A DNA stretch of 21,612 nt from an uncultured bacterium (lineage in GTDB: Bacteria; CAIJMQ01), in assembly GCA_903821905.1 (NCBI GenBank), contig CAIJMQ010000022.1, positions 1 through 21,612 on the forward strand, written 5' to 3'. Of this stretch, positions 1,301-11,418 are shown in pieces. Within the stretch, counting starts at the first letter, position 1; each line of letters begins with the position of its first letter. Position numbers and translations under genes: made by a program. A model generated the notes under the pieces. That model was not told the DNA's origin and ran no database searches. It saw only the letters and a list, made by a program, of their open reading frames with translations.

Positions 1301-3712
1301 ATGGATAAAGAGAACAATTACCCTTTCAAAGAGATAGAAAGTAAGTGGCAGGAGTTTTGGCAACAGAATAACTTCTACCAAGCTGAAGATTTTTCCTCAA
1401 AGCCAAAACTTTATATCTTAATCGAATTCCCTTATCCTTCCGGAGAAGGGCTTCACGTTGGCCACTGCAGAAGCTATTCCGCATTAGATACCATATCCCG
1501 CAAGAAAAGAATGGAAGGATTCAATGTCCTTTATCCGATAGGCTGGGATGCATTCGGTTTGCCTACGGAGAATTACGCAATAAAAAACGGTGTCCATCCT
1601 GAAGTTGCCACTCAAAAAAATATTGCCAATTTCAAAAGAAGTTTAAAAAGTTTAGGGATTTCTTTTGACTGGAGCAGGGAAGTAAATACCACCGACCCAA
1701 GCTATTACAAATGGACACAATGGATTTTCCTGCAGTTATTCAAAAAAGATATGGCTTATCAGTCGGAAATCCCGATTAACTGGTGTCCTTCCTGCAAAAT
1801 CGGTTTAGCCAACGAAGAAGTTATAGAAGGCAAATGCGAAAGATGCGGGACAGAAGTGGAACGCAGAGAACAAAAACAGTGGATGTTAAAGATTACTAAA
1901 TATGCTGACCGGTTGATTGAGGATTTAGAAGGCCTCGATTACCTGGAGAAAATCAAACTTCAGCAGATTAACTGGATAGGCAAAAGTTTCGGCACGGAGA
2001 TTGACTTCGAAGTAGAAAATTCTAACCAAACAATCAATGTATTCACTACAAGAGCAGACACTCTTTGCGGAGTAACAGCAATCGTGTTGGCGCCTGAACA
2101 TCCGTTAGTAGGCAAACTAATTACCATCGAATGTAAGAAAAAAGTTTTGAAATATATAAAAGACGCCAAAGCAAAAAGCGAATTCGAAAGAACAAAAATC
2201 GAAAAAGAAAAGACAGGTGTTTTCGCCGGTTCTTACTGTATTCATCCCGTAACAGGTGAAAAAATTCCTGTTTGGATAGGCGATTACGTAATCGCCACTT
2301 ACGGCGGCGGTGCAGTAATGGTTGTTCCAGCCCACGATTATAGAGATTACGACTTTGCAAAGAAGTTCGGCTTAGCAGTTAAAGAAGTCGTTAAGGGTGG
2401 CGATATAACGAACGAAGCATTTACCGATTATGGTGTCTTAATCAATTCAGGAGAATTTGACGGACTATCTTCCAAGGATGCAATAGAAAAAATCACCGGC
2501 TGGCTCCAGGCAAAAAACTTAGGTCGCAAGATAGTTCAGTACAAACTACGCGACTGGATATTCTCAAGACAGCATTATTGGGGTGAACCAATTCCGATTA
2601 TTCACTGCGACTCGTGCGGAATGGTGCCTGTCCCCGAACAGGATTTACCCGTTAAACTCCCCTTTGTTGAAAAGTATGAACCCACAGGAACAGGCGAATC
2701 ACCTTTAGCCGATATCAAAGAATGGGTCAATGTTAAATGCCCCAAATGCGGCGAACCAGCAAAAAGAGAAACAGACACAATGCCAAACTGGGCGGGCTCA
2801 AACTGGTATTTCATGCGCTATACCGACGCCAACAACGACAATGCCCTGGCCGACCCCAAGAAACTCAAATACTGGCTCCCTGTTGACTGGTATAACGGCG
2901 GAATGGAACATACGACACTTCATCTATTATATTCACGCTTCATATACAAATTCCTATACGATATCGGCGTTGCTCCGACTCCCGAACCTTACCAAAAGCG
3001 GACAGCTCACGGTATGGTTTTGGCAGAAGACGGCAGAAAAATGTCCAAATCATTCGGCAACGTAATCAACCCCGATGACATCGTCAAAACCTACGGCGCA
3101 GATACATTGAGAATATACGAACTGTTTATGGGACCATTTGACCAGGCAATCTCCTGGAATACACAAGGCGTAAAAGGTGTCTTCAGATTCTTGGAACGTC
3201 TCTGGAATCTAACTCTTGAATGTTCACAAAACAAAGAAAGCAGTGAAGAAGCCATACGCGAAATACATAAACTCAATAAAAAAATCTGCGATGACTTGGA
3301 TAAAGCAAAGTTCAACACACCAATCGCAGCGTTTATGGAATTTATAAATTTCGGATATGCTAATAAAGAGAAAGTAGGGAAAGATGTAATCAAGAGAATG
3401 TTATTGCTTCTTGCTCCGTTTGCTCCGCATACCGCAGAAGAACTGTGGGAAAGAGTAGGGGAAAAGCCATCAGTATTCAATAACGCCTATCCTAAATACG
3501 ACGAGAAACTGCTCAAGGAAGAAACGATTACCGTTATAGTTCAGGTGAATGGTAAACTTCGAACAACACTGCAGGTTGACAGGAATATATCAGAAGAAGA
3601 TTTGAAGAAGTTAGCTCAACAAGACCCTCACGTCCAGAAACACACTGAAGGAAAGCAAATTAGGAAAGCGATTGTTGTTTCGGGGAAGTTAGTTAATTTC
3701 GTGGTTGATTAG
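1301..3712 (+). CDS. leuS: Leucyl-tRNA synthetase
   Basis: 803-residue class I aminoacyl-tRNA synthetase that charges tRNA-Leu with leucine in the cytoplasm. The HIGH signature appears as HVGH (residues 52-55) and KMSKS lies at residues 580-584. Between them are the first zinc-binding module (CPSC...CERC), the CP1 editing domain with TTRADTLCGVT, and a second CDSC...CPKC zinc ribbon before the catalytic domain resumes. The C-terminal anticodon-binding domain ends with VIVQVNGKLR. The length matches the roughly 804-residue Bacillus-type enzyme and is shorter than the E. coli type because there is no large leucine-specific insertion before KMSKS. The start ATG at 1301 has only a weak upstream purine stretch. 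Its 3' end overlaps the convergent deacetylase gene by 20 bases. Confidence 0.99.
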   Translation: MDKENNYPFKEIESKWQEFWQQNNFYQAEDFSSKPKLYILIEFPYPSGEGLHVGHCRSYSALDTISRKKRMEGFNVLYPIGWDAFGLPTENYAIKNGVHPEVATQKNIANFKRSLKSLGISFDWSREVNTTDPSYYKWTQWIFLQLFKKDMAYQSEIPINWCPSCKIGLANEEVIEGKCERCGTEVERREQKQWMLKITKYADRLIEDLEGLDYLEKIKLQQINWIGKSFGTEIDFEVENSNQTINVFTTRADTLCGVTAIVLAPEHPLVGKLITIECKKKVLKYIKDAKAKSEFERTKIEKEKTGVFAGSYCIHPVTGEKIPVWIGDYVIATYGGGAVMVVPAHDYRDYDFAKKFGLAVKEVVKGGDITNEAFTDYGVLINSGEFDGLSSKDAIEKITGWLQAKNLGRKIVQYKLRDWIFSRQHYWGEPIPIIHCDSCGMVPVPEQDLPVKLPFVEKYEPTGTGESPLADIKEWVNVKCPKCGEPAKRETDTMPNWAGSNWYFMRYTDANNDNALADPKKLKYWLPVDWYNGGMEHTTLHLLYSRFIYKFLYDIGVAPTPEPYQKRTAHGMVLAEDGRKMSKSFGNVINPDDIVKTYGADTLRIYELFMGPFDQAISWNTQGVKGVFRFLERLWNLTLECSQNKESSEEAIREIHKLNKKICDDLDKAKFNTPIAAFMEFINFGYANKEKVGKDVIKRMLLLLAPFAPHTAEELWERVGEKPSVFNNAYPKYDEKLLKEETITVIVQVNGKLRTTLQVDRNISEEDLKKLAQQDPHVQKHTEGKQIRKAIVVSGKLVNFVVD

Positions 3713-4361
3713 CAAGATACTCAGCCAATTCACTGAAAGTCATAAACACACATCCTTGCCGTTTTAATTCCGCAATAATCGCAGGCATTTCCGCAACCGT
3801 CTCATTACGCCATTCGTGGAACAAAATAACAGTTCCGTCTGTAATATTGGATGTGGCATTTTGCTTGATTTGTTCTGCGCTCAATTCTGCTTTCCAGTCA
3901 TCGGAAACTCCCAGACTTTTAAACTTATATACTTTGAGGTTAACCTTTTCCGCTATCGCAGGTATTCGCGGGTCAGATTCAATGTATGGTAACCAGTACC
4001 ATTTCGGCGTATAACCTACCTTTTCAATAATAACCTTCTGCGCGTTCACGATATCAAATTCCAGCATTTCATTGTCTGAATCTTTTGGGTGTAAGTGAGA
4101 ATATGAATGATTCGCTATCTCGTGTCCTGCAGCCACAACAGCTTTTGCGATATCAGGATGAGCTTCTACGTTTGTTCCTACATAGTCGAACGTAACATGT
4201 ATTTTTTCGCGCTCAAATATTGCTAAGAGCTTTGGCGCATTGTCCGTCGTTGGTCCATCATCAAAACAGAGAGCTACATGTTTGGGCGCTGATTCAGCTT
4301 TAACCGAGTAAGTGGCTGTTAGTAAGAACATTGTAATAATAAGTAGTGAACGTATAAACAT
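3693..4361 (-). CDS. Secreted NodB-like polysaccharide deacetylase with altered motif 3
   Basis: 222 residues from the ATG at 4361; a TTG five codons upstream is possible but would put charged residues ahead of the signal peptide. The N-terminus is a signal peptide (hydrophobic residues about 5-17, then KAES). The NodB fold is shown by FDDGP (33-37; D34/D35), the metal-binding histidines in HSYSH (H85, H89), SDDW, and LFHEW near the end. Family members are metal-dependent enzymes removing N- or O-acetyl groups from chitin oligomers, peptidoglycan or xylan. The motif-3 arginine (normally R-x-P-Y) is replaced by Trp123 in WLPY, so activity may be altered. It would act in the periplasm or outside. 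It follows the HNH gene with a 21-base gap and overlaps leuS tail-to-tail. Confidence 0.93.
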   Translation of the reverse strand: MFIRSLLIITMFLLTATYSVKAESAPKHVALCFDDGPTTDNAPKLLAIFEREKIHVTFDYVGTNVEAHPDIAKAVVAAGHEIANHSYSHLHPKDSDNEMLEFDIVNAQKVIIEKVGYTPKWYWLPYIESDPRIPAIAEKVNLKVYKFKSLGVSDDWKAELSAEQIKQNATSNITDGTVILFHEWRNETVAEMPAIIAELKRQGCVFMTFSELAEYLANQPRN

Positions 4362-4382
4362 AAAGTCTTTTACCAAGGAAAT

Positions 4383-4949
4383 TTAATATTGGTTTATTTT
4401 AGTTTTACAATTGGGACAAACATCTAATCCAGTAAGTAATCCTATCCGAGTATTACAATTAGAACAGTAAAAATTTGAATATGTTTTTGGCCCAAGTTTT
4501 ACGGCATTGGTACTATTCACGATTGCAGAAGCAGTCATACTAGCTGTTTGAGGGGTAATATCTTTAATGAGTTGGTCTGATATACTTTTTAGCATTGCTT
4601 TTAATTCTGTAATATCTTCTTGACCACGTTGAATTTTCTCCAACTTGGTATTCATATTATTTAATACTTCCCAATTTTGAGTTACCCAATTTTTACTTGA
4701 TGAATATATTTCTTCACACTGTTTATACCATCGGTCTCTCATTTGCCGTATTTCTTTTCTTTTTTTAGGATTATCACCAAACTGATCATGACAATTTTGG
4801 CATAGCGGTGCTCCATTATCTATATCATCAGAACCACCTTCATTTTCAGGAATAATATGATGGGCATCAATTCCAATATTTTGACATCTACAGCAACGAA
4901 ATGCCGCTTTGTTTTTTATCTCAAGTTTTGTTTTTTCAGAAAATGGCAT
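4383..4949 (-). CDS. HNH endonuclease with C-terminal zinc ribbon
   Basis: 188 residues. The N-terminal half is an HNH nuclease: C19-x2-C22, the catalytic AHH (H30, H31), an Asn at 45 and PLCQNCHD (C50, C53, H54). A helical, probably coiled-coil linker follows (about residues 65-130), and the C-terminus carries a four-Cys zinc ribbon (C162, C165, C178, C181). HNH proteins of this size are metal-dependent DNA nickases or nucleases found in restriction, phage packaging and homing contexts; the specific role is not evident. No methyltransferase or phage gene is nearby. The ATG at 4949 has an AAGGAT Shine-Dalgarno site, and the gene has its own promoter within the preceding gap. Confidence 0.9.
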   Translation of the reverse strand: MPFSEKTKLEIKNKAAFRCCRCQNIGIDAHHIIPENEGGSDDIDNGAPLCQNCHDQFGDNPKKRKEIRQMRDRWYKQCEEIYSSSKNWVTQNWEVLNNMNTKLEKIQRGQEDITELKAMLKSISDQLIKDITPQTASMTASAIVNSTNAVKLGPKTYSNFYCSNCNTRIGLLTGLDVCPNCKTKINQY

Positions 4950-4969
4950 TTCTATATCCTTTGTATCTC

Positions 4970-4998
4970 ATTAAACCCCTCAACACCCAAAAAGTCAA
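4970..4998 (-). promoter_or_regulatory. Sigma70-type promoter of the HNH gene
   Basis: On the minus strand, TTGACT (4998-4993), a 17-base spacer and TTTAAT (4975-4970), about 20 bases before the HNH start codon. It suggests the HNH and deacetylase genes form a unit separate from the membrane-protein operon upstream. Confidence 0.55.
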
Positions 4999-5010
4999 AT
5001 AAAGAGGATA

Positions 5011-5280
5011 TTACTTTAACCTTTGGAAAATCTTTTTTAGAATAGGTATTTCGCCTATTAGACCGATTAGAAGAGACAATATACCCAACATACCCATGCA
5101 GAACATTACAAAAGTAATAGCAATTCCTACGGAAAGCCAAGACGAGAAATGTTGTGAAGGGTTCCTAGGTCTACTAAGAGATGGAACTAATAGCGTAAAT
5201 CCCAGAATCCCAATTGGAATTAAAATATAACCTATGAGTCTAAGTTTACCCATGTTTGATGGTTTGTTCTTTTTAAACAT
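5011..5280 (-). CDS. Small two-helix membrane protein of unknown function
   Basis: 89 residues with a basic N-terminus, a first hydrophobic segment (about residues 13-34), a short polar loop rich in Ser, Pro and Arg, a second long hydrophobic segment (about 47-75) and a basic tail. I recognise no family. It begins 16 bases after the RDD gene's stop codon, in the same direction, so it is likely co-transcribed. The Shine-Dalgarno site (GTGAG) is weak. Another frame here is open but not hydrophobic and has no ribosome site, so this frame is preferred. Confidence 0.65.
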   Translation of the reverse strand: MFKKNKPSNMGKLRLIGYILIPIGILGFTLLVPSLSRPRNPSQHFSSWLSVGIAITFVMFCMGMLGILSLLIGLIGEIPILKKIFQRLK

Positions 5281-5296
5281 AGTTACTCACGTCAAA

Positions 5297-5902
5297 TCAT
5301 GCATGAAATCCCATTTTGCCTTTTGGTTCTTCTTGTTCTTTGAGATTTTCAGACATGGTCTTACAATCAATTACAACGGTTCCTGCTATAAAATCGTGCA
5401 AAGCCCGTCTTTTATTGTTGAGCAATAGCGATGTTAAGTTTCCAAAATTCCATAAAATAATCAAAATTTTATTATAGTTAAACCAGCTAGGATAAAATTT
5501 AACCATATATCTTCCTTTTTCAAGGAAACTCATTACGCGATATGTTTCATAGGAAAGGGACTTGAATGCAATTGTAATGGCAACAAGAAATAACACAATA
5601 AACAAAGTATTCACGGATAAACGCAAGAATGCCTCTTTATAGGATATTGGCTCAAATGATGTTTTGACAATTTTTATTTTCATAACAAGTTTGCCCGGAG
5701 TAGCACCAAATTTCACTAAAAAGAATACCTTGAAAGCAAGTGTAAGGATAGCCAATAAATAGGTGGAAACAATATATGAGGCAAATGAGTAGTTTGCAAG
5801 AGGAAGGATTAGTAGAGACAGCCCCCCAAAAATTATACCGTCAATAATAACTGCAGGAGCTCTTAACCAAAATTTTGCATATATTACTTCATCAGGTTTC
5901 AT
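5297..5902 (-). CDS. RDD family integral membrane protein
   Basis: 201 residues with a strong GGAGGG Shine-Dalgarno site before the ATG. The RDD pattern is clear: FWLRAPAVIIDGIIFG in the first helix (Arg14 and Asp21), then FGATPGKLVMKIKIV, and near the end KRRALHDFIAGTVVI with the third-motif Asp. There are about four membrane helices. RDD proteins occur in the inner membrane of many bacteria; some affect ion or stress tolerance but most are uncharacterised. The C-terminal tail EEPKGKMGFHA is not part of the RDD fold and is identical to the tail of the nearby DUF3467 protein, with 32 identical bases. The tail therefore looks acquired. Confidence 0.9.
   Translation of the reverse strand: MKPDEVIYAKFWLRAPAVIIDGIIFGGLSLLILPLANYSFASYIVSTYLLAILTLAFKVFFLVKFGATPGKLVMKIKIVKTSFEPISYKEAFLRLSVNTLFIVLFLVAITIAFKSLSYETYRVMSFLEKGRYMVKFYPSWFNYNKILIILWNFGNLTSLLLNNKRRALHDFIAGTVVIDCKTMSENLKEQEEPKGKMGFHA
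5301..5332 (-). repeat. 32-bp repeat, copy 1 (3' end of the RDD gene)
   Basis: Identical over 32 bases to 6813-6844 and read in the same frame (EEPKGKMGFHA) in both genes. The codon after it differs: TGA here, TAA in the other copy. The adjacent bases 5294-5311 also match 5920-5937 at 17 of 18 positions. Confidence 0.95.
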
Positions 5903-5924
5903 TTATTCCCTCCTTCATGAAATC

Positions 5925-5937
5925 ACGCATGAAATCC
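5925..5937. repeat. 13-bp direct repeat, left copy flanking the lipoprotein gene
   Basis: ACGCATGAAATCC, identical and in the same orientation as 6811-6823. It lies between the stop of the GC-rich lipoprotein gene (four bases away) and the RDD gene start. The core CATGAAATC is also repeated just beside it at 5916-5924. Confidence 0.9.
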
Positions 5938-5941
5938 GAAA

Positions 5942-6763
5942 TCAGTCACCTACGGTGATGGTGATGTTGTCGTTGAGCACTGTTGCCTGCGTCATCTTGC
6001 GGTTGGCGTAAAGACCCATATGCACTCCGGCTAAACCTGGTTTGTCCAGATAAGGGCCGGCGGATACCAGTACGTTGTCCTGGTAAATGCGAACTTGTCC
6101 TGTCTTGACGTCCGCCTCCACGCGCACTGTTACCCACTTTCCGATGGGAAATACAGGGCCATCCTTGATTTCGTCAAAGAACACGGTGGTCTTGCCTGCG
6201 GAACCAATCGAGTAGCCTTGCAACCGGTAATGTCCCGGCGTCCCCACGAGATTCACCATCACAGAGGGATGCCAGTTTGTCCCACCGACGCGGGTGGTTT
6301 CATCAAACAAGGACACTAAACTCAACCACGGTTTGTCAGAGTAAGGACCCAGTTCTGACGGCGTGAGGTCGTCCACTTTGATGTCGCAACTGACAGTGAT
6401 GCTGCCAGGCAGAAACTGGTCGAAATAAATTCCCGGATACAGACGGAATTTCTCGGGATCGGAGGGCGGAAAATCAGGAGTGAGATGAGCGGCGAAGACG
6501 AGTCCCCGTCCCGGCTCCTTCGGGTCGGGCAGGTATTCATAGTGACCCGGAATTATCGGACGTTCGGAGTTCACAAAGGCGGATTCGCTCGAACAATCCC
6601 CTTTCCAAACAAACGCGCGCGGTACTGACGAAGTCACGGATTCCTCCCTTGATATATTCGTATGACTGATTGACCGACAACCTGCACAAAGTATAGCTAT
6701 TCCAAATCCAATAATCAATAACGGATTCCAGTATTTCTTAATGAAAGTTCTGTGTTTTTTCAT
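5942..6763 (-). CDS. GC-rich concanavalin-A-like (LamG/polysaccharide-lyase type) lipoprotein
   Basis: 273 residues from the ATG at 6763; a TTG ten codons earlier keeps the frame open but precedes the normal signal-peptide start. The N-terminus is a signal peptide ending ILCAGC (predicted lipidated Cys29, with Cys at -3 where Leu is usual). The remainder is beta-rich, with features of sugar-binding or lyase jelly-rolls: SITVSCDIKVDDL, GKWVTVRVEADVKTGQVRIYQD and GLAGVHMGLYA. No catalytic residues can be assigned, so it may bind or cleave extracellular polysaccharide. Hand counts of four lines across the mature part give 53-63% GC, against 30-35% in two lines over its own signal-peptide region. 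It is bracketed by a 13-bp direct repeat and looks horizontally acquired. Confidence 0.85.
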   Translation of the reverse strand: MKKHRTFIKKYWNPLLIIGFGIAILCAGCRSISHTNISREESVTSSVPRAFVWKGDCSSESAFVNSERPIIPGHYEYLPDPKEPGRGLVFAAHLTPDFPPSDPEKFRLYPGIYFDQFLPGSITVSCDIKVDDLTPSELGPYSDKPWLSLVSLFDETTRVGGTNWHPSVMVNLVGTPGHYRLQGYSIGSAGKTTVFFDEIKDGPVFPIGKWVTVRVEADVKTGQVRIYQDNVLVSAGPYLDKPGLAGVHMGLYANRKMTQATVLNDNITITVGD

Positions 6764-6808
6764 TTTCACTTCGTTAAACTTCTTTATTCCCAAGACTTCA
6801 AATAATAT

Positions 6809-7105
6809 TTACGCATGAAATCCCATTTTGCCTTTTGGTTCTTCAGATGCTTGGATGACACCGAATTTTGCTTCATATTTACCAATATTATCCTGTAATG
6901 CTTTTATTATTCTTTTCATATGTCCGGGGCTGATGATTACTCTTGAAGTTACGGTTCCCACCGGCGGGACAATCATCAAAAAGTCCATCACAAATTCTTC
7001 TTTGGTATGCATAACCAACATATTGTTGGAATATGAGCCGCTCTGCAGTTCTGGTGGACAAGTAACTTTTATTTCTTTTGGTTGTTCCCCTTGACCGTTT
7101 GCCAT
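6809..7105 (-). CDS. DUF3467 family protein
   Basis: 98 residues with an excellent AAAGGAGG Shine-Dalgarno site before the ATG. The core fits DUF3467: a strand pair around NNMLVMHTKEEFVMDF, then TSRVIISPGHMKRIIKALQDNIGKYEAKFG, the most conserved part of the family. Members are small cytoplasmic proteins of unknown function. Two extensions are unusual: the first nine residues (MANGQGEQP) resemble the start of the upstream membrane protein (MTNSQEEQP) at the DNA level, and the last eleven (EEPKGKMGFHA) equal the end of the RDD protein. This gene is therefore the likely source of both duplicated ends. Confidence 0.9.
   Translation of the reverse strand: MANGQGEQPKEIKVTCPPELQSGSYSNNMLVMHTKEEFVMDFLMIVPPVGTVTSRVIISPGHMKRIIKALQDNIGKYEAKFGVIQASEEPKGKMGFHA
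6811..6823. repeat. 13-bp direct repeat, right copy
   Basis: ACGCATGAAATCC, identical to 5925-5937. It covers the end of the DUF3467 gene, including the last codons and most of the stop. The 873 bases between the copies hold only the GC-rich lipoprotein gene and its leader. Confidence 0.9.
6813..6844 (-). repeat. 32-bp repeat, copy 2 (3' end of the DUF3467 gene)
   Basis: Identical to 5301-5332 and encodes the same C-terminal residues EEPKGKMGFHA in the same frame. Flanking bases differ at once upstream in each gene (VIQAS here, LKEQ in the RDD gene). Confidence 0.95.
7078..7105 (-). repeat. 28-bp gene-start repeat, copy 1 (DUF3467 gene)
   Basis: The first nine codons (MANGQGEQP) match 7448-7475 at 24 of 28 bases. 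All four differences are A/G transitions. Similarity ends at the next codon. Confidence 0.85.
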
Positions 7106-7130
7106 TTAAACCTCCTTTAATTTAGTGAAA

Positions 7131-7475
7131 TTACATAACAATTATGAAACAAGCAAGTGCCAAGAGAGCAAAGGGAAGAGCTATATATCCTGCCCATTTT
7201 GGTTTGCCTCTAAATGATAGTACAGCCCATATACATGACAAAATTGCAAAAATCCGATAAATTAAAAGGTGAGAAAGAACTGATTCAGCAACTAAAGCAG
7301 TTTCGTGGATCCTCTCATCTGGGTATAATGATGCTAAGCGGGTGCAAATTTGCCAGTGAACAGTACTATATATTGACAACAAGTAAACACAAATAAAAGC
7401 AAAGAAAATACTTGTGAGCACATAAGGCCATGCTGATTTTCTAGATATTGGTTGTTCTTCTTGACTGTTTGTCAT
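7131..7475 (-). CDS. Three-helix membrane protein of unknown function
   Basis: 114 residues with a polar start (MTNSQEEQPISRK) followed by three hydrophobic segments at about residues 17-37, 66-87 and 93-113. I recognise no family. The ATG directly follows the TAA of the upstream lipoprotein gene with no gap (TAAATG), so translation is probably coupled. The N-terminal nine codons are near-identical in DNA to those of the DUF3467 gene just downstream, although the rest of the two proteins is unrelated. Confidence 0.75.
   Translation of the reverse strand: MTNSQEEQPISRKSAWPYVLTSIFFAFICVYLLSIYSTVHWQICTRLASLYPDERIHETALVAESVLSHLLIYRIFAILSCIWAVLSFRGKPKWAGYIALPFALLALACFIIVM
7448..7475 (-). repeat. 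28-bp gene-start repeat, copy 2 (membrane-protein gene)
   Basis: First nine codons of the 114-residue membrane protein, matching the start of the DUF3467 gene at 24 of 28 bases. Confidence 0.85.
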
Positions 7476-7865
7476 TTAATGTTTATCAGGTATTTCGACT
7501 CTGACTGTTGAAATCCGTGTGTTAGAGCTAGTAATCAAGCCGCCAACCGGCGTTTCTTCATTTGGATTGATTTTTAGCTGTGTATTTATAGATGATACTT
7601 TACCTTCTTTATTTCTATTTTCATACTTAAGTTGTAGAGCGAGGAAGCCGTCTTTCTCGTCAGTCAATTTTCCAGACAGTATACGCTTTGACTGTTTGGT
7701 GCCCATGATTTTGTTGAAAGTTCCGTCAGGTTTGATATCTGCTATTGTTGTAATAGAACCTGTTGGAGATGATTCGGTTAGAATAACACGACGTGAAGGA
7801 ATAGAGGCACATCCGCAGATGAGAACAACCAAGAGAACGACAATTAAAAGGTTCTTAAATTTCAT
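7476..7865 (-). CDS. Small lipoprotein of unknown function
   Basis: 129 residues. The signal peptide has a basic start, a long Leu/Val core and the lipobox ICGC (predicted lipidated Cys19). The mature part is polar and beta-prone, with repeated short strands (GSITTIADIKPDGTFNKI, GFLALQLKYENRN, STVRVEIPDKH) and no cysteines. I recognise no family. It is 17 bases behind the upstream membrane-protein gene and directly abuts the next one, so it is an internal operon gene. It would sit in the periplasm, anchored to the inner or outer membrane. Confidence 0.8.
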   Translation of the reverse strand: MKFKNLLIVVLLVVLICGCASIPSRRVILTESSPTGSITTIADIKPDGTFNKIMGTKQSKRILSGKLTDEKDGFLALQLKYENRNKEGKVSSINTQLKINPNEETPVGGLITSSNTRISTVRVEIPDKH

Positions 7866-7882
7866 AATTATTTAGGTTGGGG

Positions 7883-8395
7883 TTATTTAGTAATCGTATT
7901 TATAAAATTTGCAATTGATTCGCTTTTCCGAATTAACAGTGCAGCTACTATAAGTGTTACTACAGGATTTGCCATATCTTTCCACAAAAAGCGTTCGATA
8001 GAATATTGTGGATTTTGTATTACGATTATCACAGTGAGTTGTACAATAGCTCGTATGCCAGATGATATTAAGTAATATAAGCCAATAATTTGAATCCAAA
8101 AAGCTACTCTACCATAACAAGGCACTGAATCTGCGGGCAAAACTTCCTGTTGTTCTGTTTTCCCAATAAGCATGTTAAGTATTTTTTCTCGTCTAAAAAG
8201 GAAAAGGGCAGAAAGTGCAAGAGGGATTAATAAGTACAGCCACATCATAAAGATATAGACCCCTTTTTGGACAAACTGGTCTTGTGGCATAAAGAAAATT
8301 TGCCATGTTGTGGCTATCATAGATTGGATGAAATACATAAGAAAATAAATGCCGAAAATAATGAGTACGATATCAAGAACTTGTCTTTTATTCAT
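7883..8395 (-). CDS. Four-helix membrane protein of unknown function
   Basis: 170 residues with a good GGAGG Shine-Dalgarno site before the ATG at 8395. Hydrophobic segments lie at about residues 8-28, 44-66, 97-124 and 141-157, with a charged cytoplasmic loop (FRREKILNMLIGKTEQQEV) after the second helix. I recognise no family. It follows the DUF3795 gene after 15 bases and precedes the small lipoprotein gene by 17, so the three are very likely co-transcribed. Confidence 0.78.
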   Translation of the reverse strand: MNKRQVLDIVLIIFGIYFLMYFIQSMIATTWQIFFMPQDQFVQKGVYIFMMWLYLLIPLALSALFLFRREKILNMLIGKTEQQEVLPADSVPCYGRVAFWIQIIGLYYLISSGIRAIVQLTVIIVIQNPQYSIERFLWKDMANPVVTLIVAALLIRKSESIANFINTITK

Positions 8396-8410
8396 AACTT
8401 CCTCCTATTC

Positions 8411-8878
8411 TTATTTATCCGCTATTTCATAAGGATAACGCCGGATATCAACATAACAGAAACCTGTTTTTGCGCGTTCTTTCTGTTCTTTGACCCATTT
8501 ATCTATACCGATTTCTTTCATACGCTGTCCGTCAGCTAATAGAGTAGGGTAGCCCTTGGCAATGCCGTTTATTCTCTTGCACGGATATTCTTTGCAGAAT
8601 ACGCAGATGTCTATACCTTTTTTAACGGCGCATTTACGGATTCCACAAAATGGGGGGCCGCATCTGCCGTCGCGACAGCTACCTGAGTGCTCTGATTTTG
8701 TTAACCCTTTAAGGAATTTCCAGAATTCCGTGAAATCGGGAATCTCTTTTCCCCAATATTCATATCCCTCTTTTTTCATAATATCCTGCAGTTCTTTTGC
8801 TCTTTTGGGGATACGGTTCTTTTGGGAACAAAGCCCGCAGTATAAACCACAATAGGTTATAAGTTTGAGGTTTGGCAT
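8411..8878 (-). CDS. Cys-rich DUF3795 family protein
   Basis: 155 residues from the ATG at 8878, chosen because AAGGAG lies at the right distance; an upstream in-frame ATG adds eleven basic residues without a ribosome site. The protein begins with the family pattern YCGLYCGLC (C10, C14, C17) and has a central cluster C68, C73, C78, C83 followed by ICVFCKEYPC (C92, C95, C100); C141 is extra. The spacing suggests zinc or an iron-sulfur cluster. DUF3795 proteins are cytoplasmic, common in anaerobes and archaea, and of unknown function. Confidence 0.88.
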   Translation of the reverse strand: MPNLKLITYCGLYCGLCSQKNRIPKRAKELQDIMKKEGYEYWGKEIPDFTEFWKFLKGLTKSEHSGSCRDGRCGPPFCGIRKCAVKKGIDICVFCKEYPCKRINGIAKGYPTLLADGQRMKEIGIDKWVKEQKERAKTGFCYVDIRRYPYEIADK

Positions 8879-8900
8879 TTTATTCTCCTTTTTTCTCTTT

Positions 8901-9152
8901 TCATATTTCATCTTCGTTGCCTTGTGTTAAAGATTTCATTAAACGCGGAATTGGTGGTTTCTGAGAAGACATAGGTCTATGAAATATCTTGAACCTTAAC
9001 CAATAAAATTGTCCGGCCAAAATAGCAAATAAACCAATAGGAATGAAAATAAAAAGGATTACCAATAATGAGATAGATAAAATGATGGGTATAAGTAGTG
9101 CAAGAAGAATAAAATGCCAAAAAGAAAAATCCCCAAACACTTTTATTCTCAT
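8901..9152 (-). CDS. Small two-helix membrane protein
   Basis: 83 residues. A nearly continuous hydrophobic stretch (about residues 11-50) probably forms a helical hairpin, followed by a basic, proline-containing cytoplasmic tail ending NEDEI. I recognise no family. It is the first gene of the membrane-protein operon, 22 bases before the DUF3795 gene, with a plausible promoter just upstream. The ATG has only a weak ribosome site. A second open frame across the same bases lacks a start region. Confidence 0.65.
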   Translation of the reverse strand: MRIKVFGDFSFWHFILLALLIPIILSISLLVILFIFIPIGLFAILAGQFYWLRFKIFHRPMSSQKPPIPRLMKSLTQGNEDEI

Positions 9153-9172
9153 AACTATTCAGAGTCAAGAGA

Positions 9173-9202
9173 ATAATACAGTATTTGGGGAAGGTTATGC
9201 AA
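9173..9202 (-). promoter_or_regulatory. Possible promoter of the membrane-protein operon
   Basis: On the minus strand, TTGCAT (9202-9197), an 18-base spacer and TATTAT (9178-9173), giving a leader of about 14 bases before the ATG at 9152. It lies immediately after the stop of the secreted-protein gene. Confidence 0.45.
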
Positions 9203-9210
9203 CCCGGATA

Positions 9211-9696
9211 TTAATTAGCTGTTTTGTCGTAAACACTCACAGCTTTCATCTCTCCCTTAGATGTTTTTTGTGCTGATTCAATTGAAAGAGAGTTTCCGCC
9301 TTCCGACAGTTTCCATGTTTCTACTTTAGTGATTTCCGTTTTATTCCCGTTTCTTTCGAGTACAGTTGTTGAAGAAATAGTTATACTCTTTCCATCTGCG
9401 AACAAATTTGCAGTTATTTTTTTCAACATCCCATTAGTTGTGTTTTCCTTTGTCTGCCCATCAAGAGTAAAATTCTCTGTGAGTTTGATATCTTTTCCGT
9501 CCGGTCCCACTAAAACTTTTTGAACTGATAGATTGTTTCCGTTTCGAGTGATTATTAACTCTTTAGCTGAATTTCCTTTCTCATTATTCTTATTCAAAGA
9601 CCATTTACCCGAAAAATTTCCCTTGCTGTCTTGTGCAAATGCAACGGAAGAGACAACTAGAAGAGCCACCAACATCAAACTTACTAAAACTCGCAT
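9211..9696 (-). CDS. Secreted lipocalin-like protein, paralogue A
   Basis: 161 residues with a GGAGG Shine-Dalgarno site six bases before the ATG. The signal peptide ends VAFA before QDSKG (cleavage after about residue 22). The mature part is polar with alternating strands: NFSGKWSLN, ELIITRNGNNLSVQK, ENFTLDGQ, LFADGKSITIS, VETWKLSEGGNSLSIE and VYDKTAN. This looks like a small periplasmic beta-barrel or beta-sandwich. It is clearly paralogous to the protein encoded at 10933-11418, sharing FSGKW, the FTLDGK-type turn, ADGK and a C-terminal VYD. The function is unknown. Confidence 0.82.
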   Translation of the reverse strand: MRVLVSLMLVALLVVSSVAFAQDSKGNFSGKWSLNKNNEKGNSAKELIITRNGNNLSVQKVLVGPDGKDIKLTENFTLDGQTKENTTNGMLKKITANLFADGKSITISSTTVLERNGNKTEITKVETWKLSEGGNSLSIESAQKTSKGEMKAVSVYDKTAN

Positions 9697-9738
9697 ATTA
9701 GCCTCCTTTTTATTTGGTTAGATAAAAAATTACACCCT

Positions 9739-9769: not shown

Positions 9770-10936
9770 TTATACAAGTTGACCGGTGCAATATCCCGAT
9801 GCCCAAGCCCAGTGAAGATTGAATCCGCCTAACTGGCCTGTTACGTCTAAGACTTCACCGACAAAATAGAGCCCTTTTACCTTGTGGGATTCAAAGGTTT
9901 TGGAAGATAGTTCTTTGGTATCAACTCCGCCTTTAGTTACTTCAGCTATCTTATAACCTTCCGTGCCTGAAGGAATTGTGCGCCATTTATGAAAGACTTG
10001 AGCAGTCTTGTTGATTTCTTTTTGGTTGTATTGATTTACCGGCTTGTTAGGACAATATAACTCCAACCATTTTTGAACAAGGCGTTTTGGTAATAGTTCG
10101 CCTATTAAGGTTTTTAATTCTGCTTTCGGTTTTTCTTTCTGCCATTTATTCATTGTTTTAACTAAATCAATGTCTGGCAAGAGATTAATAACAATCTCTT
10201 CTCCTTTATTCCAGTAGTTTGAAATTTGGAGTATTGCAGGTCCGCTTAATCCTTTATGAGTGAAGAGGATGGATTCTCTGAAAGATTTTTTATTGCAGGA
10301 AACAAGTGTTTCTACAGAGATACCGGCTAAATCACGAAAGTGTTTATTATCAAAAACAAGAGGAACTAAAGCTGGGGAGGTGGGGATAATGTTCAGTCCG
10401 AATTGTTTGGCAATGTCATATCCAAAACCCGAAGCCCCGATTTCAGGCATTGATAAACCACCGGTTGCTATAACCAAAGATTCTGCCGAATAGTCTCCTA
10501 AATTGGTGTTTATGAGGAAATACTCTTCTTTTTGTATGTTTTTTATTTCACAGTTAGTTTTAATCTCAGCTTTTCCTATCTCGCATTCTTTCAATAATAG
10601 ATTTACAATCTCTTTGGCTTCTTTGTTACAGAAGAGTTGACCTGCTTTTTTCTCATTGTAAGGTATGCCATACTTTTCAAGTAATGAAAGGAAAATATCT
10701 GGAGTAAATCGGCTCAATGCTGATTTGCAGAAATTTGGGTTATTGGATGTGTAATTGTCTGATTGGACCCAGAGGTTTGTAAAGTTGCAGTGTCTCCCGC
10801 CTGAAACAAGGATTTTATTGCCGACCTGGTCAGATTGGTCTAAAAGCAGGACTTTTTTCCCTCTTTGTCCCGCTGTCAAAGCACACATCAACCCTGCTGC
10901 ACCGCCGCCAATTATTATAACCTGATAATGTTTCAT
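9770..10936 (-). CDS. BaiN/HI0933-family FAD-dependent flavoprotein
   Basis: 388 residues. The N-terminal FAD-binding Rossmann motif is GGGAAG (residues 10-15). It is followed by the family hallmark region, here SGGRHCNFTN instead of the common SGGGRCN-x-TN, then VIATGGLSMPEIGASGFGYDIA, and the C-terminal FAD-contact region GLYFVGEVLDVTGQLGGFNLHWAWASGY. Family members are cytoplasmic flavoproteins annotated as NAD(P)/FAD-dependent oxidoreductases; the BaiN group is linked to bile-acid dehydroxylation, but most members have no known substrate. Its ATG overlaps the stop of the upstream paralogue gene (ATGA), so translation is coupled. Confidence 0.93.
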   Translation of the reverse strand: MKHYQVIIIGGGAAGLMCALTAGQRGKKVLLLDQSDQVGNKILVSGGRHCNFTNLWVQSDNYTSNNPNFCKSALSRFTPDIFLSLLEKYGIPYNEKKAGQLFCNKEAKEIVNLLLKECEIGKAEIKTNCEIKNIQKEEYFLINTNLGDYSAESLVIATGGLSMPEIGASGFGYDIAKQFGLNIIPTSPALVPLVFDNKHFRDLAGISVETLVSCNKKSFRESILFTHKGLSGPAILQISNYWNKGEEIVINLLPDIDLVKTMNKWQKEKPKAELKTLIGELLPKRLVQKWLELYCPNKPVNQYNQKEINKTAQVFHKWRTIPSGTEGYKIAEVTKGGVDTKELSSKTFESHKVKGLYFVGEVLDVTGQLGGFNLHWAWASGYCTGQLV

Positions 10937-11418
10937 TTTTTTCTATCATAAACATCATTGGAATTTCGGGTGCCTTTAGCGGATTGAGAGGAATAATTAA
11001 CCGAAAGAGATTTTCCGTCTTCTGAGAGTTCCCATATTTCGATAGTTGTTCTAATATCATTTTGCGCAAAAATACTCATATAAGAAATTGTCATTTTTTT
11101 ACCATCTGCAGACCAACTTACAGCTGATTTTGTTGGTTTTCCAGATATTACACTGTCTTTTACTTTACCATCCAATGTAAATTTTTCAGTGATAATTCCC
11201 GACCCTGAAAATTTTTGTGAAATTCTATCGATTATTAAATCATTTCCTTCTTGACGGACATTTAGTTCTTTCTGAGCAGATGTTCTGTGCCCTTCATATA
11301 AACTTTTATCACTGTTTAAAACCCATTTGCCTGAGAAATTTACTTTTTCAGTTCCCGCAAATGTAATAATAGAGATAGAAATTAAGATAACCAAAATTAA
11401 AGCTGTTAAAAATCGCAT
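10933..11418 (-). CDS. Secreted lipocalin-like protein, paralogue B
   Basis: 161 residues, the same length as its paralogue at 9211-9696. The signal peptide ends ITFA before GTEKVN. The mature part repeats the same series of elements: NFSGKWVLN, KELNVRQEGNDLIID, EKFTLDGKVKDS, WSADGKKMTIS, IEIWELSEDGKSLSV and NDVYDRKK. The ATG has AGGAG at a suitable distance. The 4-base overlap with the flavoprotein gene places both in one transcript. A periplasmic location is likely and the function is unknown. Confidence 0.82.
   Translation of the reverse strand: MRFLTALILVILISISIITFAGTEKVNFSGKWVLNSDKSLYEGHRTSAQKELNVRQEGNDLIIDRISQKFSGSGIITEKFTLDGKVKDSVISGKPTKSAVSWSADGKKMTISYMSIFAQNDIRTTIEIWELSEDGKSLSVNYSSQSAKGTRNSNDVYDRKK

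Follow-up and report, generated by a model that had tools for sequence, protein, structure and literature searches.

A lipoprotein gene of foreign origin, flanked by short direct repeats, at a DUF3467–RDD gene junction where the DUF3467 end is recurrently copied

Short variable segments bounded by flanking repeats, mostly under 30 bp, are known from E. coli and other bacteria, where they are common in membrane-protein genes and have been attributed to illegitimate recombination (PMC2884548). Homology-facilitated illegitimate recombination in natural transformation, as cited in the same source, has been described for Acinetobacter, P. stutzeri and S. pneumoniae. The locus considered here lies in a window of 21,612 nucleotides (the whole stretch of DNA that was analysed), which is one contig of a fragmented metagenome-assembled genome of 1.30 Mb and 84% completeness. 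It resembles the segments of PMC2884548 in being gene-sized, in having direct repeats below 30 bp, in involving membrane or surface genes and in bearing no mobile-element signature; whereas those segments are mostly strain-level differences often read as deletions between repeats, the present case involves a cross-phylum gene and a target-gene end that is copied in two genera. With homology-facilitated illegitimate recombination the locus shares foreign DNA, very short homologies and independence from a transposase or NHEJ, and a ComEC gene is present in the window’s genome; in contrast to that process, no long homologous anchor was identified here, and the event is read from sequence alone. 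Integron cassettes and integration sites at gene 3' ends are comparable in their repeat copies at gene ends and in the addition of genes in a row, but the present locus has no attC structure, no nearby integrase and repeats of unequal length.

The features on which the argument depends are the following (window coordinates).

5297–5332, minus strand: copy C, an exact 32-base duplicate of the DUF3467 3' end, and its TGA junction
5297–5902, minus strand: RDD-family membrane protein gene (PF06271, E=7.8e-18), carrying the DUF3467 tail as an in-frame C-terminal fusion
5925–5937, no strand assigned: right 13-bp copy (B), exact match, in the gap between the lipoprotein stop and the RDD leader; donor similarity stops here
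5942–6763, minus strand: the acquired lipoprotein gene, encoding an LCAGC lipobox and a domain of jelly-roll lectin/polysaccharide-lyase-like type, identified by homology to L020 and L021 and by a beta-sandwich model
6722–6810, minus strand: AT-rich stretch from the DUF3467 end to the part with foreign homologues; an ATG start at 6763 is probable
6809–7105, minus strand: DUF3467 gene, 98 aa (PF11950, E=1.4e-20); the repeated tail derives from its final 11 codons (EEPKGKMGFHA)
6811–6823, no strand assigned: left 13-bp copy (A), exact match, in the DUF3467 3' end
7437–7479, minus strand: start of an upstream 114-aa gene, which repeats the DUF3467 5' end at 28 of 32 bases

The sequence ACGCATGAAATCC forms an exact 13-bp direct repeat at 5925–5937 and 6811–6823, precisely where the first-pass annotation had placed it, and the lipoprotein gene on the minus strand is the sole gene between the two copies, again as annotated. 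A third copy with one mismatch lies at 5299–5311. The two longer matches that the annotation had also pointed out were both recovered, namely 17 of 18 identical bases between 5294–5311 and 5920–5937 and an exact 32-bp repeat between 5301–5332 and 6813–6844. The stretch common to copies A and C is 32 bases long and that common to A and B 13, while B and C agree at 17 of 18 positions, TGATTT among them. The mere presence of a 13-base repeat in 21.6 kb is unremarkable, the window containing 12 exact 13-bp direct repeats against 9.5 expected by chance. Chance does not, however, explain why its copies lie at the two edges of the gene: when the last 60 bp of the DUF3467 gene were compared with the 40 bp before RDD, the observed match of 13 exceeded the simulated maximum of 11 and was reached in none of 4000 simulations.

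The lipoprotein gene is horizontally acquired, of planctomycete or verrucomicrobial type on the evidence of its homologues, and inserted with a sharp right edge. In a scan of 85,000 species, its closest relative was a free-standing 262-aa lipoprotein from Phycisphaerales (L020; 81% amino acid identity), followed by the end of a 653-aa protein from Verrucomicrobiales (L021; 71%) and by Armatimonadetes-type relatives of 57–58% identity that are fused to a glycosidase-looking protein. The DNA alignment to L020 runs from window position 6721 down to 5936; it stops at the start of copy B, a few bases beyond the stop codon. The left edge of the insert is masked by the 88 AT-rich bases at 6722–6810, which fall outside this alignment. 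For that leader no source was detected in seven related genomes, the best non-self match having E=0.003. The description of the gene as GC-rich holds for the domain, with a GC content of 0.545 as against 0.32–0.39 in the neighbouring genes, but not for its first 57 codons, which are AT-rich (GC 0.35). The ATG at 6763 agrees better with the homologue than the listed TTG (6793), which is therefore probably not the true start. Plasmid and phage collections returned no match to the lipoprotein segment, and an origin from either was rejected on this ground.

The product is probably a carbohydrate-binding or lyase-like lipoprotein of the cell surface, as suggested by a structure model that shows a beta-sandwich, predicted with low to moderate confidence (mean pLDDT 60.7, pTM 0.63). 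The model’s fold matches belong to the concanavalin/lectin-lyase class and include alginate and glucuronan lyases. Clostridial neurotoxin binding domains, the top fold matches, were rejected as an indication of function, for they have in common with the model only the lectin jelly-roll (TM about 0.3). Likeness to the polysaccharide lyase family PF14099 is one of fold class only, the score of 19 bits being below the curated cut-off of 29.9, and searches of solved structures and NCBIfam gave no match to the lipoprotein.

The annotation had regarded the arrangement as a probable insertion at a gene junction and had proposed a search of relatives for the empty site. This site was found: in G003, a member of the same family but of a different genus, the DUF3467 gene (83% identical) is directly followed by RDD (67% identical) and the lipoprotein gene is absent. 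Together with the foreign source of the gene, the empty site supports insertion. The lipoprotein gene is also absent from all six class relatives. DUF3467 orthologues in G001–G003 are 83–87% identical, with the same tail and a TAA stop; the tail EEPKGKMGFHA is present in every one of the four family genomes, one of them having EFHA, and in other phyla a GF motif recurs close to the DUF3467 C-terminus. Since the RDD protein of G003 has no DUF3467 tail, C is a copy of that tail.

Gene capture of this kind is already known; what is mildly unusual is that the DUF3467 end has been copied repeatedly. A second copy of the genome’s own DUF3467 3' end is present in G003 (L019:2082–2117, minus strand), at the end of a 150-aa gene located 1.56 kb downstream of DUF3467, with 25 exact bases at L019:2085–2109. 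G001 and G002 have one DUF3467-tail copy each, and no further tail copies were detected in the genomes examined. A near match at C26 was rejected as a tail copy: it is coding sequence of dapB-like type. The DUF3467 3' end has therefore undergone downstream duplication in both genera. The two duplications appear to be independent, because each copy carries the base changes of its own genome; alternatively, a single old copy may have evolved in concert with the gene end. The other end of the gene has been copied as well. Positions 7437–7479 match 7067–7109, so that the 114-aa membrane protein gene, which is missing from the relatives’ loci, begins with a copy of the DUF3467 leader and first codons. 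Isolated near repeats of 25–32 bp of comparable kind were rare in 566 kb of control sequence (background rates drawn from samples of 195 kb and 371 kb), and none of 20 DUF3467 genes from other phyla showed DUF3467-end repeats.

The further proposal of the annotation, that the 13-bp copies are the two sides of one interrupted site, is plausible but unproven; on balance we consider it more probable than not. It would imply a formerly uninterrupted ...GGATTTCATGCGTGATTTCATGAAGGAGG-RDD junction, and such an ancestral contiguous junction, copied to position C and later split by the insert, could account for all three copies. In favour of this idea, the copy at the RDD end extends past the tail with six of seven bases common to the RDD leader (p about 0.004 by our own arithmetic), which supports the argument although it is not strong taken alone. 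Against it stands a stop-codon mismatch. Copy A is followed by TAA, the DUF3467 stop in four of four genomes, but TGA follows both B, at the RDD leader, and C, at the RDD end, so the ancestor would have needed TGA, with the insert supplying AA by chance. Copies of the DUF3467 end also occur in association with no lipoprotein gene, 1.56 kb downstream in G003 and at the RDD end in the window, and the repeat here could therefore have arisen otherwise than through this insertion. A shared ancestral flank of copies A and A2, with p 0.03 among 21 comparisons, was set aside.

The gene is foreign, a relative has the site empty, a repeat lies on either side of the insert, and the DUF3467 end has been copied more than once, in two genera. 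A horizontal insertion, of a kind already known, is thus well supported for this gene junction, which is an unusually busy one. In the reading we prefer, at a probability of roughly 0.6, the foreign lipoprotein gene was joined into the DUF3467–RDD gap by short-homology, transposase-independent recombination, with a switch of template during replication as the likeliest step. The planctomycete/verrucomicrobial-type gene would have entered by horizontal transfer, perhaps through transformation. Synthesis may then have departed from the host template within the DUF3467 end to copy the foreign gene, and re-entry into the host template about 13 bases upstream would have duplicated those bases on both sides; the order of these events is likewise conjectural. 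Template switching in the course of replication or repair, with slightly upstream re-entry, would be expected to yield short pasted copies as well as duplications of the target whose length is arbitrary. Similar events would also account for the DUF3467 3'-end copies, both the one that ends the RDD gene in the window and the one that ends the 150-aa gene of G003, and for the DUF3467 5' end copied to the 114-aa gene. Fill-in during end joining is an unlikely route, since Ku (PF02735) was absent from the seven genomes, of which the window’s is 84% complete, in a search with a positive Bacillus control. Against the preferred reading, the TAA conserved behind copy A is more in keeping with a DUF3467 end left intact than with one that was cut, and the empty site of G003 is in another genus, where loss of the gene by deletion is a possible alternative.

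It is doubtful that copy B is instead a remnant of an RDD or DUF3467 tail duplication and that the lipoprotein gene arrived by an unrelated event nearby. Such a history is consistent with the copying of the DUF3467 tail elsewhere in the lipoprotein’s absence, with the TGATTT common to B and C but not A, and with the conserved TAA stop of DUF3467; it requires, however, a tandem duplication and a replacement on top of the insertion, and donor similarity stops right at B. An uninterrupted DUF3467-end GCGTGATTTCATGAAGGAGG-RDD arrangement in the same genus would not fit it. Unlikely, too, is site-specific cassette capture, in which a tyrosine recombinase encoded elsewhere would integrate small gene cassettes at the DUF3467 3' end as attachment site, restoring the gene end and leaving copies at a distance. 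That two genera each have a duplicate of this 3' end about 1.5 kb downstream, in the sequence version of the respective genome, agrees with it, as do the five matches to the tyrosine-recombinase domain in the window’s genome compared to two in most relatives. Yet the copies differ in length (13, 25 and 32 bp) and in their downstream flanks, with no constant core, the segments contain no recombinase, the genomes have no other tail copies and the 20 DUF3467 genes of other phyla have no such repeats. An attC-like fold is absent, and a folded single-strand site was dismissed, as folding was no better than that of shuffled sequences. Quite unlikely is the more general idea that in this family the DUF3467 3' end is a recurrent acceptor for small cassettes by an undescribed mechanism. 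If true, each capture would remake the DUF3467 end and leave a downstream copy, giving rise to an array of surface-protein genes. A transposon-type insertion with a 13-bp target-site duplication, its element since lost or acting in trans, would explain the direct repeat on both edges and the foreign gene inside, but is very unlikely: terminal inverted repeats and a transposase gene, which the annotation had already failed to see, are indeed lacking in the segment, neither plasmid nor phage collections gave a match, and the TAA beyond copy A is conserved.

The locus has importance as a natural example of a single foreign gene entering a small genome independently of a mobile element, with a near-donor sequence, the empty site and the footprint all visible. 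The DUF3467 end, copied repeatedly in two genera, offers a spot for working out the rules of such captures. Window positions 3693–9700, from leuS to an FAD oxidoreductase gene, constitute a locus of gene turnover where small membrane, lipoprotein, HNH or nucleotidyltransferase/HEPN-like genes differ per relative. The small lipoprotein genes at 7476–7865 of the window and at L019:3948–4343 of G003 are alike only over 22 aa at the end with the signal peptide (77%). Beyond it they showed no similarity, which suggests replacement of the body. The FAD oxidoreductase gene is flanked by two diverged paralogous genes for secreted proteins, at 9211–9696 and 10933–11418.
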